A stretch of 64,000 nt of DNA from Bacteroidales bacterium. GTDB taxonomy: Bacteria; Bacteroidota; Bacteroidia; Bacteroidales; UBA932. Below the pieces are notes generated by a model. That model had not been told where the DNA came from. It ran no database searches and worked only from the letters and a program-made list of their open reading frames with translations. A program made the translations under genes and the position numbers. The stretch covers positions 98,901 to 162,900 of the forward strand of contig JAGAIM010000116.1 in NCBI GenBank assembly GCA_017626555.1. The letters run 5' to 3'. Shown here one piece after another: positions 48,483-55,576 of this stretch. Numbering within the stretch: the first letter of the stretch is position 1; every line of letters begins with the position of its first letter.

Positions 48483-50396
48483 TTAAAATAGTTTTACAAA
48501 TACTTCAATTGCCTGATATTCTGCCATTCCAAGTTCGTTGTAGAGACGGGCAGTGTTCTGTGTCCTCTCTTCAGCCCTCTGCCAGAATTCACGAGGATCT
48601 TCTCCTGGGAAAGGAACGATGTCCTTCTGGGAGAGGTGACGATAGATTGCGTGACGCTTCTTGATGACTTCGTCAGGGCTGAGCGGAACTGCCATATCAA
48701 CCTTTCCGAGTTCCCACTCCATCCAGGCTCCTCTGTAGAGCCATACGTGACACTCTTTCAGCCATTCTGCGCCGCTAAGTTGATTGAGCGCTTCGAGAAC
48801 TGCTTCAGTACATACACGATGTGTGCCGTGAGGGTCAGCGAGGTCGCCGGCAAGATAGATCTGATGTGGCTGTACCTTCTGGAGAAGTTCGATGATGATG
48901 TCGATATCTGCCTGGGTGCGCTGTCCTTTCTTGATGCCTCCTGTCTCATAGAACGGAAGATTGAGGAAGTGAGTGTTGGTCTGGTCGTTAAGTCCGAATG
49001 AACGTACGGCACTCTTGGCCTCGGCGCGACGGATGGCACCTTTGAGATTGAGAAGTGCTCTTGGCTCTGGCTGTCCGGGCTTCTTGGATGCTATAATGGC
49101 TTTGACTTCGTCGAATCTGTCTCCGAATCCGAGTTCGCGTGCTGCATCCATATGCTGAAGGACAACATCATCGTGAACCGCAACGTTTCCTGAAGTCTCG
49201 TATGCGACGTGTACATCGTGTCCCTGCTCGGCAAGTCGGATGAATGTACCACCCATCGAGATCACATCATCATCAGGGTGTGGAGAGAATATGACCACTC
49301 TCTTAGGGAATGGAGAGGAAGGAACCGGTCTTGTACTGTCATCCGCATTCGGCTTTCCTCCCGGCCATCCTGAAATCGTATGCTGGAAGTCGTTGAATAC
49401 CTTTATGTTGATCTTATCATACGGACCGTGCTGCTCAAGAAGTTCTCCGAGTCCGTGCGCAAGATAGTCGCCCTGGGTGAGTTTGAGGATTGGCTTGTGA
49501 ACCTGCTCGCAAAGCCATACTATAGCCTTACGTATGAACTTAGGTGTCCATTCGCAAGGGCCTACGAGCCAAGGTGCTACATTTCTTGTAAGAAGGCTTG
49601 CTGCATTTTCTTCAGTGTAGAAAGAAATGTTCTCGTGCTGCTGGAGATATGATGCCGGACAAGCAGGATTCATCGGGTCTTCTACGACCTTCTTTACTAC
49701 TTCCGCCTTATCTTCGCCCCATCCGATCAGATATATCTTCTTTGCACTGAGCATTGTGGATATACCCATTGCGATAGCCTTGTCAGGGGTCTCATCCATA
49801 TTGGCGAAATTCTTGACCTGCCTCTTTCTTGATCCGTATGGGAGGAGCACAGTCCTTGTCCTGCTCTTGTCCGATGCGCCGGCTTCATTGAAGCCGATCT
49901 GTCCTTTTTCTCCTATTCCCATAATGAGGAGATCCAGACCTTTCGCTTTTGCGTCGAAATCTGCGCAGAATGCTGTAACTGATTCTGTATCAAGAATTTC
50001 GGTAAGTTTAGGGATGTGGACATTTTCAGGCTTTACATCAATGTTGCAGATGAGTTCTTCATAAAGCCTTCTGTTTCGGCTCTGACTGTCGGCAGGAGCA
50101 GGATAATATTCATCGATACTGAATATTTCCACATTGGCGAAAGATACTTTTCCTTCCTTATGATATCTTGAAAGGGCTTTGTATAAGAATATTGGTGATG
50201 AGCCGGTTGACAGTCCGAGACGATAGGTTCCTTCACAACCGTTGATCGCTTCGACAATCTTTTCAGCAAGACGTTCGCTTGCAACTTCTTCGTCTTCAAA
50301 AATATGTGCTGGTATCCTCTCGTAAGTGTGTTTGATACCGTTTGGAAGACCGGCCTCGATCAGGCCTCCGTCTTTAGGTAAGGAAAATTTCTTCAT
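48483..50396 (-). CDS. NagB-like and PIG-L (LmbE) fusion protein with altered NagB active site
   Basis: A two-domain cytoplasmic protein. The first ~290 residues follow the NagB fold ([24 protein letters not shown] with the conserved Asp). The second part (~365-560) is a PIG-L/LmbE N-deacetylase-type domain with the metal motif [14 protein letters not shown] (His373) and DPHGTHRVC. Fusions of this layout are common in Bacteroides and labelled glucosamine-6-phosphate deaminase. Here the NagB motif reads [13 protein letters not shown]: Lys164 and Gln166 occupy the places of the catalytic Asp141 and His143 of E. coli NagB. The NagB half is therefore probably inactive or changed in function, while the PIG-L half looks intact. 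Gene start is supported by a -7 box upstream. Confidence 0.85.
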
Positions 50397-50686: not shown

Positions 50687-51481
50687 ATGGTCAATTTTTC
50701 ACTTGATGGTAAGGTGGCTCTTGTAACGGGAGCAGCATACGGAATTGGTTTTGCTATGGCTCAGGCACTCGCTGAGGCTGGAGCAAAGATAGCGTTTAAC
50801 TGCCGTTCACAGGCTAATATGGATAAAGCCTTGGAGGCATATAAGGCGCTTGGGATAGATGTCAAGGGATATATATGCGATGCTACTGACGAAGAAGCGG
50901 TCAAATCTATGGTTGCCGATATTGCTGCTACTCTTGGGCCAATCGACATCCTCGTGAACAACGCAGGTATCATCAAGCGTATTCCTATGCACGAAATGGC
51001 TGCAGAAGAGTTCCGTCAGGTTATTGATATTGATTTGGTGGCTCCATATATCTGTGCAAAGGCTGTGCTGCCTGGAATGATGGAACGTAGGTCGGGCAAG
51101 ATAATCAATGTATGTTCGATGATGTCTGAACTCGGACGCGAGACTGTGTCAGCGTACGCTGCTGCCAAGGGAGGACTTAAGATGTTGACAAGAAATATCG
51201 CTTCGGAGTATGGAGCATACAATATCCAGTGCAACGGAATCGGTCCTGGTTATATTGCTACTCCTCAGACAGCACCTTTACGTGAACGTCAGGCTGATGG
51301 CAGCCGTCATCCTTTCGACTCTTTCATAGTTGCCAAGACTCCTGCCGAACGCTGGGGAACACCGGAAGACCTGATGGGACCGGTTGTATTCCTTGCTTCT
51401 AATGCATCCGATTTCATAAACGGACACGTGCTGTATGTAGATGGCGGAATCCTGGCATATATCGGTAAACAACCAAAATAG
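50687..51481 (+). CDS. kduD: KduD-like SDR dehydrogenase (2-deoxy-D-gluconate 3-dehydrogenase / gluconate 5-dehydrogenase group)
   Basis: A cytoplasmic short-chain dehydrogenase. It has the NAD-binding motif VTGAAYGIGFAMAQAL, NNAGIIKR, and the catalytic Tyr-Lys pair in SAYAAAKGG (Y-x-x-x-K). In this operon, beside kduI, KDG kinase and KDPG aldolase, the expected reaction is reduction of 3-deoxy-D-glycero-2,5-hexodiulosonate (DKII) to KDG. Family members are also called gluconate 5-dehydrogenase, and sequence alone cannot separate them; context favours KduD. At 264 aa it is standard length. The permease gene follows 11 bp after the stop. Confidence 0.88.
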   Translation: MVNFSLDGKVALVTGAAYGIGFAMAQALAEAGAKIAFNCRSQANMDKALEAYKALGIDVKGYICDATDEEAVKSMVADIAATLGPIDILVNNAGIIKRIPMHEMAAEEFRQVIDIDLVAPYICAKAVLPGMMERRSGKIINVCSMMSELGRETVSAYAAAKGGLKMLTRNIASEYGAYNIQCNGIGPGYIATPQTAPLRERQADGSRHPFDSFIVAKTPAERWGTPEDLMGPVVFLASNASDFINGHVLYVDGGILAYIGKQPK

Positions 51482-51492
51482 TTTCTAGGTAT

Positions 51493-52908
51493 ATGGAACA
51501 AGTATTCAGTTATATCATTGGTCTGGGTGCTGCAGTGATGATGCCTATCATCTTCACCATTCTCGGTGTGTGCATCGGCATCAAATTCAGCAAGGCTCTC
51601 AAGAGCGGACTTCTCGTGGGAGTCGGTTTTGTGGGTCTTTCTGTCATTACTTCGCTTTTGACCAGCACTCTCGGTCCGGCACTGAGCAAGGTCGTGGAAA
51701 TATATGGACTTCAACTTAAGGTATTCGATATGGGATGGCCTGCTGCTGCGTCGGTTGCATATAATACCTCGGTTGGTGCGCTGATCATTCCTGTTTGTCT
51801 CGGAGTCAATATCCTGATGCTCCTTACCAAGACGACCAGGACGGTCAACATCGACCTTTGGAACTATTGGCATTTCGCATTCATCGGAGCAGTGGTCTAT
51901 TTTGCTTCCGAGAGTATTCTCTGGGGCTTTTTTGCAGCGATAGTATGTTATATTATCACTCTGGTTCTTGCAGACTATACCGCTGACAGATTCCAGAAAT
52001 TCTATGACGGAATGGAAGGAATTTCTATCCCGCAACCTTTCTGCCAGGGATTCGTTCCTTTTGCAGAAGTAATCAATAAAGGTCTTGACAAGATACCAGG
52101 TATGGACAAACTGGAGATCGATTCCGAGGGTCTGAAGAAGAAATTCGGACTTCTTGGTGAGCCTCTTTTCCTTGGTATCCTTGTGGGAATCATAATCGGT
52201 GCCCTTTCTTGTGAGACTTGGAAAGAAGTCGTAGAGAAGATCCCATATATCCTTGGAGTCGGAATCAAGATGGGAGCGGTTATGGAACTGATTCCTCGTA
52301 TAACTTCGCTCTTCATCGAGGGTCTGAAGCCTATTTCAGAGGCAACCCGTGAACTTATCAACAGGAAGTTCAAGGGAGCGAAAGGCCTCAATATCGGAAT
52401 GAGTCCGGCACTGGTTATCGGCCATCCTACTACTCTTGTGGTGTCACTTCTTCTGATTCCAGTGACACTTGTGCTGGCTGTTGTCCTCCCAGGAAACGAG
52501 TTCCTTCCGCTTGCTTCGCTTGCGGGAATGTTCTACATTTTCCCTCTGATTCTTCCTATCACAAAGGGTAATGTGGTGAAGTCTTTCATCATAGGCCTGG
52601 TTGTAATCCTTATCGGACTGTATTTCGTGACAGACCTGGCTCCTTTCTTTACGCAGGCTGCTCAGGATGTCTTCGCCAAGACAGGAGATGCTGCAGTGGC
52701 TATCCCTGAGGGATTTGAAGGTGGTTCGCTTGATTTTGCATCGAGCCCTCTCGCTTGGGTGGTATTCCATCTTTCATATTCGTTGAAGTGGATAGGAGTG
52801 ACAGTTCTCGTGCTCTTCACGATGTTCCTGATGTTCTTGAATCGTCGTGCTATCATCAGGTATCAGAAAGCATCCTGTGTGGAAAATACAGACAATAAAA
52901 CAGAATAG
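51493..52908 (+). CDS. PTS galactitol-type EIIC-like permease without EIIA or EIIB
   Basis: A polytopic inner-membrane protein with ten or more hydrophobic segments, matching the galactitol (EIIC-GAT / SgcC) type: [20 protein letters not shown] at the start, [47 protein letters not shown] and [24 protein letters not shown] normally works with phosphorylating EIIA and EIIB partners, and Bacteroidales generally lack a sugar PTS. None is present in this operon. Between kduD and kduI, it is likely to import a uronate product as a non-phosphorylating secondary transporter. The C-terminus has a short polar tail. Confidence 0.85.
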
Positions 52909-52910
52909 AT

Positions 52911-53852
52911 ATGAAAAGAATTTTATTAATTACAGCAATGACAGTTATGACATTTGCAGCAAACGCACAGTTGAACTATAAGGTTCAGACCGCTTGCCAT
53001 CCTGATGATGTCAAGCATTATGACACGGAGCGTCTCCGCGGAGCCTTCCTTATGGAGAAGGTTATGGCTCCAGATGAAATCAACCTCACCTACACTCTTT
53101 ATGACCGTCTGATCTACGGTGGAGTGATGCCGGTCAGCAAGACTCTTGTTCTCGAGACTTTCGATGAACTCAAGGCTGAGCATTTCCTCGACAGAAGAGA
53201 ACTTGGAGTTATAAACGTCGGAGGTGACGGAGTCGTGACTGTTGACGGCAAGGAGTATCCTATGTCTTTCAAGGAAGGTCTTTATGTAGGATGTGGCAAG
53301 AAGGAAGTTACTTTCAGAAGCGTTGACCCTGCCAATCCTGCAAAATTCTATATCAACTCGACTCCTGCTTATAAGGAGTATGTCACTCAACTGATCACTA
53401 CAGACAAGAATGCGGATCCTAAGAAATATGCCATTGCTCAGTCTGACCATTATGGAAAGATGGAGGATAGCAATGACCGCATTGTAAATCAGTTGATAGT
53501 AAGTTCAGTACTCGGCAAGGTGAAAGGTGGCGGTACCAATCAGTTGCAGATGGGTCTTACCGAACTTCTTCCTGGTTCGGTCTGGAATACAATGCCGGCT
53601 CATACCCATACACGTCGTATGGAAGCATACTTCTATTTCAATGTGACACCTGGCAATGCGATCTGCCATCTTATGGGCGAGCCTAAGCAGCAAAGACTTG
53701 TGTGGATGCAGAACGAGCAGGCAATAACTTCGCCTGAGTGGTCGATTCACGCAGCAGCAGGAACCAGCAATTATATGTTCATCTGGGGAATGGGCGGTGA
53801 GAACCTGAACTACGGTGACAAGGATGAGATTCCATACACTGAAATGAGATAA
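52911..53852 (+). CDS. kduI: 5-keto-4-deoxyuronate isomerase with apparent signal peptide
   Basis: KduI isomerises 5-keto-4-deoxyuronate (DKI) to DKII. The cupin metal ligands are kept: His231 and His233 in [10 protein letters not shown], Glu238 and His280 in WSIHAAAG. Their spacing equals that of H196, H198, E203 and H245 in E. coli KduI, by recall. Unlike the ~278-aa cytoplasmic enzyme, this 313-aa protein begins with [20 protein letters not shown], a good Sec signal peptide with A-N-A cleavage, placed before the region that aligns with the E. coli N-terminus. A further ~12-residue insert lies near 160-200. A TTG at 52971 could start a cytoplasmic form instead. The gene follows the permease stop by 2 bp. 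Confidence 0.9.
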
Positions 53853-53865
53853 AAAATATATTATT

Positions 53866-54906
53866 ATGGCAAAAGTCATTACTTTCGGCGAGATTATGCT
53901 CCGCCTTTCAACTCCGGGATATCTCAGATTCTCGCAGGCAAAGCAGTTCGAGGCTACTTTTGGTGGCGGTGAGGCAAACGTTGCAGTATCGCTTGCAAAC
54001 TATGGTATTGAGACAGAGTTCGTGACCAGACTTCCTAAAAATGATATAGCGGCAGCCTGTGTCAAGGATCTTCATAGTTATGGAGTAGGTACAAAGCATT
54101 GTGTATATGGCGGTGACCGTCTGGGAATATATTTCCTTGAAACAGGTGCAGTGGCACGTCCAAGCAAAGTTGTCTATGACCGCGCATACTCATCAATCGC
54201 TCAGATTGAAAAAGGTATGATTGATTGGGAGAAGGTGTTTGAAGGTGCAGACTGGTTCCACTGGACAGGTATCACTCCGGCAATCAGCCAGGGCGCTGCG
54301 GACGTATGTCTCGAAGCCATCCAGGCTGCCAACAGGCTTGGTATCACAGTTTCTTGCGATCTCAACTACAGAAAGAATCTCTGGAAATACGGCAAGACTG
54401 CTTCGGAGGTTATGCCTGATCTCGTAGCAGGATGCGATGTTATCCTTGGTAACGAGGAGGATGCTGAGAAAGTGTTCGGAATCAAGCCGGAGGGCTTTGA
54501 TGTGACTGCAACCAAGGGAGAGGTGAATGCTGCAGAGTTCGAAAGCGTGTGCAAACAACTTATGGCAAAGTTCCCTCGTGCAAAGAAGGTTATCATCACT
54601 CTACGCGGATCGATCAATGCGAACCACAATACTTGGGGAGGAGTGCTTTATAGCGACGGAACTCTCTATCAGTCACCAAGATATGATATTACTCATATCG
54701 TTGACCGTGTCGGCGGCGGTGATTCATTTATGGGCGGTCTCATATATGGTCTGCTGACCTATACTGATGATGATCAGAAGGCACTCAATTTCGCAGTTGC
54801 GGCTTCCTGCCTCAAGCACACAATCTGTGGCGACTACAATCAGGTGACTGTTGCAGAGGTTGAGAACCTTATGAAGGGTGACGGTTCAGGACGAGTATCA
54901 AGATAG
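53866..54906 (+). CDS. kdgK: 2-keto-3-deoxygluconate kinase (PfkB family)
   Basis: A cytoplasmic sugar kinase that phosphorylates KDG to KDPG. It shows the PfkB-family N-terminal [34 protein letters not shown] with the Gly-Gly motif, [10 protein letters not shown], and the ATP and catalytic-base motif [17 protein letters not shown] with Asp. At 346 aa it is typical. It lies 13 bp after kduI and 4 bp before the aldolase gene, in one operon. It accepts KDG from the KduI/KduD route and can also use KDG made by mannonate dehydratase from the xylan region. Confidence 0.93.
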
Positions 54907-54910
54907 TATT

Positions 54911-55576
54911 ATGGCAAAGTACAATAAATTACAGGTTATTTCGGCGATGAAGGAGACAGGAATGGTTCCTGTCTTCTACAATGCCGACCTCGAGACAGCA
55001 AAGGCTGTCGTGAAGGCTTGCTACGAAGGTGGCGTACGTGCCTTCGAATTCACCAACAGAGGCGATTTCGCTCACGAGGTGTTCGGTGAACTGGTCAAAT
55101 ATGCCAACAAGGAACTTCCGGGTATGATTCTCGGTATAGGTTCGGTGGTAGATCCTGCAACCGCGGCTCTTTATCTTCAGTTGGGAGCGAATTTCGTTGT
55201 CGGTCCTCTCTTCAATCCTGAGATTGCTCCGGTCTGCAACCGTCGTCTTGTGCCTTATTGTCCGGGATGCGGAACTGTGTCGGAGGTCGGCAAGGCTCAG
55301 GAACTTGGCTGTGATCTCTGCAAGGTGTTCCCAGGAGATGTTCTCGGACCTGCATTTGTGAAAGGTCTGAAGGCTCCTATGCCTTGGAGCCAGATTATGG
55401 TGACAGGAGGCGTAAAGCCGACCAAGGATAATCTCGAAGGCTGGTTCAAGGCTGGAGTGACTTGTGTCGGAATGGGAAGCAATCTCTTCCCTAAAGAGGC
55501 CATTGCAGCAAAGGACTGGGCGGCTATCACAGCACTCTGTCGTGATGCCCTTGATATAATCAAGTCGGTGAGATAG
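54911..55576 (+). CDS. eda: KDPG / 4-hydroxy-2-oxoglutarate aldolase
   Basis: A class I aldolase that splits KDPG to pyruvate and glyceraldehyde 3-phosphate. The start at 54911 ([17 protein letters not shown]) is chosen because the eleven upstream codons overlap kdgK. Family features are [20 protein letters not shown], a conserved Glu in [37 protein letters not shown] (read in two halves) and the Schiff-base Lys in [14 protein letters not shown]. The 221-aa mature frame matches the family. It is the last core gene of the uronate pathway. Confidence 0.94.

Follow-up and report, generated by a model that had tools for sequence, protein, structure and literature searches.

The window, a stretch of 64,000 nucleotides from a Bacteroidales bacterium, carries around kduI a run of five genes on the forward strand in the order reductase, EIIC permease, kduI, PfkB kinase and KDPG aldolase. 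The first gene (50687..51481) encodes an SDR-family reductase without a signal peptide, which scores 477 bits with NF005488, 'gluconate 5-dehydrogenase' (cut-off 369), and 226 bits with the kduD model TIGR01832, under its cut-off of 338.85; this reductase presumably has a KduD/DhuD role. The second (51493..52908) encodes an EIIC-GAT family permease that passes the PF03611 cut-off with 279.5 bits and reaches 391.5 bits with TIGR00827 (galactitol PTS EIIC), under the cut-off of 542.2, and its stop codon lies 2 nt ahead of the kduI start codon. Downstream of kduI are a gene encoding a PfkB-family kinase (53866..54906; PF00294, 115.2 bits, no NCBIfam cut-off reached), to which a KdgK role can be attributed, and a gene encoding a KDPG/KHG aldolase with a KdgA role (54878..55576; PF01081; NF005499, 381.3 bits with a cut-off of 275), whose likelier start is the ATG at 54911. 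The reverse strand (48483-50396) shows a gene for a 637-residue protein which, by eye, resembles a fusion of a glucosamine-6-phosphate deaminase with a PIG-L-type deacetylase, and a second NagB-like gene adjoins it.

The kduI ORF (52911..53852, forward strand) is intact, starts with ATG and encodes a protein of 313 amino acid residues. In the NCBIfam search, it passes the KduI equivalog model NF002091 with 366.8 bits over residues 24-313 (cut-off 250), and PF04962 also matches in the Pfam search. The predicted mature protein comprises residues 20-313 (52968..53852 with the stop codon), the same residues that are matched by the top-scoring PDB chain, 9kd0 (461.6 bits); the first residue of this chain is a Gln aligned to Gln20, as if the construct omitted the signal peptide. 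In the alignment with E. coli KduI, His231, His233, Glu238 and His280 (codons within 53601..53750, forward strand), which we take to be the metal binders, correspond to His196, His198, Glu203 and His245 with identical spacing, which bears out the original prediction that the four ligands keep the E. coli spacing. With any residue allowed before the Glu, this ligand pattern is complete in 89 of 90 distinct KduI proteins bearing a signal peptide (SP); an earlier and stricter pattern, with Met or Val before the Glu, matched 77 of the 90. The E. coli KduI start sits opposite residue 23, therefore the first 19-20 residues of the window protein are an added extension. No second KduI was found in the genome of the window (3.09 Mb, 95.42% complete).

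Two cysteines, Cys29 (52995-52997) and Cys128 (53292-53294), are typical of the exported form. The motif 'AC[HNS]P', which contains Cys29, is present in 88/90 SP-bearing and 3/95 SP-less KduI, and the motif 'Y.GCG', which contains Cys128, in 71/90 and 1/95, respectively. The SP-less KduI of locus L028 retains both. It is possible, judging from the sequences, that Cys29 and Cys128 form a disulfide in the periplasm.

Signal Peptide of KduI

KduI is usually regarded as a cytosolic enzyme of pectin breakdown. In the window, its N-terminus (residues 1-19, 52911..52967, forward strand) is a predicted Sec-type signal peptide that has the sequence features of a Q-rule Sec/SPI substrate, namely a basic start, then a hydrophobic core, then a small-x-small site followed by Gln. 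The predicted cut, between ANA and Q20, is a Bacteroidetes Q-rule site, as a Gln directly after the cut is the Q-rule feature of Bacteroidetes in the available part of PMC5837995. A lipoprotein was ruled out, since the cut is followed by Gln, without a Cys. Both the sequence and its homologues confirmed the original prediction of an uninterrupted signal peptide with an A-N-A-Q end ahead of KduI; the new N-terminus, placed there at residue 21, is instead expected at Gln20 (codon 52968-52970), after a cut behind Ala19.

We examined 79 loci of named genomes by eye, and 78, all but L028, have an SP-like N-terminus. SP-bearing examples are those of Phocaeicola vulgatus ATCC 8482, Bacteroides clarus, B. 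fluxus and Paraprevotella clara. A set of 94 distinct SP-bearing proteins was picked by a rule (basic start, hydrophobic core, small-x-small site) that already demands signal peptide features, so the uniformity of this set is partly built in. All 94 have an ATG start codon before the signal peptide and a small-x-small-Q pattern, with Ala (93/94) or Gly (1/94) at position -1; in L158, the cut site is probably between ANA and TE, not before Gln. The signal peptide has 19 residues in 78 of them, and an acidic residue is found within the first 18 residues in only two. Compared with nine close relatives, the window KduI shows 3-11 replacements in residues 1-19 and 4-13 in the 294 mature codons; on these alignments, the predicted signal peptide drifts in sequence and retains its features.

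The specificity of the signal peptide rule was controlled by requiring a Lys or Arg near the start, a hydrophobic core and small-x-small-Q. This rule was passed by 88 of 180 distinct KduI N-termini, and by none of the N-termini of five other families: KduD 0/107, KdgK 0/34, KdgA 0/29, EIIC 0/54 and MFS 0/21. It was also passed by 23 of 24 GH105 proteins, by just 10 of 36 pectinesterase N-termini and by 124 of 20000 sequences in which residues 2-35 had been shuffled. Without the Gln, the rule accepted KdgK (19/34), EIIC (3/54) and MFS (5/21) proteins; such a rule is unspecific, as the KdgK count shows, therefore the Gln matters. These controls, with other protein families and shuffles, ruled out a chance hydrophobic N-terminus.

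The N-terminus could also be non-exporting, either as an uncleaved anchor or because translation begins at an inner start, leaving KduI cytosolic or membrane-bound. Such a reading could appeal to the export being predicted from sequence, to the TTG codon at Leu21 and to the Leu21-equivalent codon being ATG, GTG or TTG in 44 of the 94 homologues (TTG in six), but the cleavage pattern, in which Ala occupies -1 in 93/94, the ATG of kduI placed 2 nt after the permease stop, and L028, which is without EIIC, also has no extension and begins right before the domain, all argue against it, and we consider it improbable. The original prediction had named conservation beginning only at the TTG-coded Leu21 as evidence against export; the homologue N-termini instead keep the ATG-started extension, on which ground an inner start at Leu21 was rejected.

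Association of Signal Peptide-Bearing KduI with an EIIC Permease

In the order sample, KduI was found in 103 of 393 genomes and EIIC matches in 12. Ten of these matches are strong (E <= 3.1e-204; G000, G072, G107, G126, G199, G230, G259, G306, G405 and G436), and the other two (G278 and G368), at 19-20 bits, were treated as noise. All KduI match places of the sample (111) were inspected except the two short fragments G179:C219 and G212:C246. Of these 109, ten are SP-bearing, all of them with EIIC, 97 are SP-less, none of them with EIIC, and two are truncated. The ten SP-bearing loci belong to the same ten genomes as the strong EIIC matches, with EIIC directly upstream of kduI. The SP-bearing form is therefore a minority among the KduI loci read in this sample (10/109).

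A first tally of loci L001-L223 found EIIC at 87 of the 89 distinct loci with a signal peptide and at one of the 96 without. That one, L091, was reassigned by hand to the SP-bearing group, as its N-terminus (MKK...VMNA followed by Q) had been missed by the pattern owing to the Met at -3; after this change, EIIC is found in 88/90 distinct SP-bearing and 0/95 SP-less loci. Wherever EIIC was found in an SP-bearing locus (87 of 87), it is located upstream and on the same strand as kduI. Among loci of at least 8 kb, EIIC is present in 78/78 SP-bearing and 0/58 SP-less ones, and a looser signal peptide rule, applied to a subset of 27 loci, gave 11 SP-bearing loci, all with EIIC, and 16 SP-less loci, all without it. 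The two SP-bearing loci without EIIC, L063 and L071, are both at contig ends and both of their genomes have EIIC. L063 has only 33 nt of upstream sequence. In L071, the SP-bearing kduI is at face value without an upstream EIIC, although the contig join looks chimeric by eye, and the EIIC match of its genome stops 3 nt short of the end of its contig, which is 4706 nt long. Positions 1-650 of L071 resemble a glycosyltransferase gene that breaks off where kduI starts, as a chimeric contig would show.

In the phylum sample, KduI was found in 99 of 395 genomes and EIIC in three (G000, G107 and G306), each with an SP-bearing KduI. The best 30 KduI match places were turned into loci, and the 24 of them beyond those already counted are all SP-less and without EIIC.

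The two forms also differ in their other neighbors. A reductase gene lies at most 400 nt downstream of kduI in 61 of 96 distinct SP-less loci, the 96 including 11 unassessed ones, and in none of the 89 SP-bearing loci; about eleven SP-less loci without the search motif had their N-termini read by eye and were left out of this adjacency count. Near SP-bearing kduI, EIIC is found in 87 of 89 distinct loci, a reductase in 23, a kinase in 15 and an aldolase in 16, many flanks being short. In G405, a gene encoding a Y_phosphatase3-family protein with an SP-like start (L206, 5976-7073) is located after the EIIC-kduI pair.

Export of KduI is strongly supported by the SP-like N-termini in 78 of 79 loci, the Q-rule cuts in the set of 94, the existence of SP-less KduI groups and the 10/10 versus 0/97 link with EIIC. 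On these sequence comparisons, KduI is very probably exported to the periplasm. The SP-bearing KduI is common to a group of Bacteroidales and not special to the genome of the window.

Loss of the Signal Peptide, Second Copies and Phylogeny

The KduI of L028 is 87% identical to that of the window, shows no signal peptide and begins directly before the domain, at MNIKIQLACHP. EIIC was not found in its 2.1-Mb genome, whose completeness was not given, and was present in the seven other genomes searched alongside. The L028 kduI is two genes behind a SusD-like gene that looks, by eye, much like the SusD-like neighbor of the GH105/pectate-lyase gene in the genome of the window.

A quick tree of 95 KduI domains, built with the signal peptide columns excluded, requires three changes of the signal peptide label: the main clade (SH-aLRT 100), L118/L127 and L028. 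The same result came from a more careful tree with 56 rows, which gives the main clade 100/100 and places L118/L127 weakly. As the trees separate L118/L127 only weakly and a single SP-bearing clade is not rejected by the AU test (p 0.42), a firm second origin of the signal peptide in these loci is not claimed. Two independent contrasts between signal peptide and EIIC are supported, three on the best tree, and they are concordant, though their number is insufficient for significance (sign test p 0.5). In the order sample the link holds without exception, yet it rests on these few events (2-3 independent).

Shared ancestry could then account for the whole link, the permease carrying something unrelated to the substrate of KduI, and the unrejected single origin together with the 2-3 independent contrasts is what such an explanation would draw on. 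Nevertheless, the pair stays adjacent while the other neighbors vary (EIIC 87/89, against 23, 15 and 16 for reductase, kinase and aldolase), and the sole loss of the signal peptide, in L028, coincides with no EIIC being found, so that we regard ancestry alone as distinctly improbable.

Four genomes among the loci read, G036, G126, G230 and G436, encode KduI in both forms, with and without the signal peptide. The exported KduI of G126 and G230 fall outside the main SP-bearing clade. The second, SP-less KduI of G230 (L218) and of G126 (L223) show a broken HxH..E..H metal site. As these SP-less copies are without the metal ligands, the exported copy has the only intact site in both genomes.

Pathway Context and Proposed Import Order

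Searches of the window's genome (95.42% complete) for HPr (PF00381) and EI (PF05524) gave no matches. Its sole GH88-family match is a protein of 789 residues (L143, 325-2694, contig C216) that begins with a Q-rule signal peptide; the first part is a Glyco_hydro_88 domain and the second resembles the pectate lyase chain 9buj. SusC/SusD-like genes lie with it, as does a hybrid two-component regulator, all named by eye. In P. vulgatus, the neighbors of the EIIC-kduI pair are a pectinesterase and a Glyco_hydro_88 enzyme, both SP-bearing, and an MFS transporter. Among loci of at least 8 kb, which are related to each other and whose SP-less members have slightly shorter flanks, a pectinesterase is nearby in 28/78 SP-bearing and 2/58 SP-less loci, a GH105 enzyme in 23/78 and 1/58, and an MFS protein in 33/78 and 9/58, respectively. 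Long SP-less loci, read by eye, show an MFS protein in 5/67 and a sodium-symporter-like protein in 3/67, with no common transporter. In the available parts of the literature, GH88 is periplasmic in B. thetaiotaomicron, where it yields 5-keto-4-deoxyuronate and unsulfated monomers are imported (PMC9067506), and GH105 acts on pectin fragments (PMC8002723).

We propose that the Sec/SPI-exported KduI and the upstream EIIC-GAT permease form a two-gene import module, which as a full explanation is the best one available (probability about 0.65). Outer-membrane PUL proteins would take up pectin, or GAG, fragments, from which exported lyases and GH105/GH88 enzymes would free the unsaturated uronate, opening to DKI (DHU) in the periplasm. 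The exported KduI would then convert DKI to DKII, the EIIC protein would carry DKII inward without a PTS, and the cytosolic reductase, kinase and aldolase would complete the breakdown. The presence of a reductase near SP-bearing kduI in as few as 23 of 89 loci, and the small number of independent contrasts, weigh against this module. Since the uronate is released outside the inner membrane and KduI is predicted there, the paired permease is a natural candidate for the importer. We infer the cellular location, the activity in the periplasm and DKII as the transported substrate from this arrangement. An order in which unsaturated uronates are first isomerized and then imported seems to us the probable one, and we lean, slightly less firmly, towards periplasmic KduI making DKII in some gut Bacteroidales, with the PTS-free, stand-alone EIIC as a dedicated DKII importer. 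Of the periplasmic isomerase in the original prediction, the export stands strongly supported by the comparison, and import of periplasm-made DKII through EIIC would be the simplest reading of the EIIC link and of the exported GH105-type enzyme.

The association of EIIC with exported KduI is silent on which isomer is carried. EIIC might take DKI too, or instead, with periplasmic KduI mainly buffering or removing this reactive dicarbonyl or equilibrating both isomers. Since the search of the window's genome gave no KduI besides the exported one, DKI taken up there would depend on some other isomerase or reductase. An import of DKI would call for a cytosolic isomerase, whereas KduI was found in this genome solely in its exported form, and in G126 and G230 it is the SP-less copy that has lost its metal ligands. 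We therefore consider DKI import unlikely. Ordinary uronates offer another substrate: the exported KduI would isomerize galacturonate or glucuronate and EIIC would import the ketouronates, in line with a side activity on these ordinary uronates that we take E. coli KduI to have. Nevertheless, UxaC, to which we attribute the cytosolic isomerization of ordinary uronates, is present in the window's genome, and the pectinesterases and GH105-type enzymes near SP-bearing kduI (28/78 and 23/78, versus 2/58 and 1/58 in SP-less loci, the loci being related) also speak against this substrate, which makes it very improbable.

If isomerization before import is true, it would close the gap at the inner membrane that separates periplasmic GH105/GH88 from cytosolic KDG metabolism. 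Through its tie to a single permease, an exported isomerase would point to a candidate importer for the unsaturated monomer, would explain what an EIIC protein does in a genome without detected HPr or EI, and would reorder the textbook pathway in P. vulgatus and other such species. Furthermore, models with a cytosolic KduI would misplace the isomerization step for SP-bearing species.

Comparison with Known Systems

Cytosolic KduI (E. coli b2843; PDB 1x8m, 1xru and 7e4s) belongs to the same family as the window KduI across the mature length and has the same ligand spacing. Unlike the window protein, E. coli KduI has no signal peptide, and its gene adjoins kduD, with no EIIC-like permease annotated within 12 kb. 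An exported KduI is described nowhere in the literature searched, which lay outside subscription papers, preprints and supplements.

In Bacteroidota, kduI-dhuD hybrid clusters are reported in a 2025 mSphere survey (PMC12838403). According to the available part of this survey, those clusters and the window share the phylum and the combination of KduI with a reductase scoring under the kduD model, but differ in that the window KduI is predicted to be exported and an EIIC gene lies between reductase and kduI. In the main text of the survey, as available, the word 'signal' is absent and 'periplasm' appears once, about Dickeya. The available parts of the descriptions of Bacteroides GAG and pectin pathways (PMC9067506 and PMC8002723) mention neither an isomerase in the periplasm nor a specific importer for the unsaturated monomer, unlike the arrangement proposed here.

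The galactitol PTS EIIC (PDB 9u82) is of the same permease family as the window EIIC over residues 3-427. In contrast to the galactitol system, the window EIIC scores under the TIGR00827 cut-off, and neither HPr nor EI was found in its genome. The enzyme and the permease family are known; relative to the literature searched, the predicted location of the enzyme and its pairing with the permease are new.
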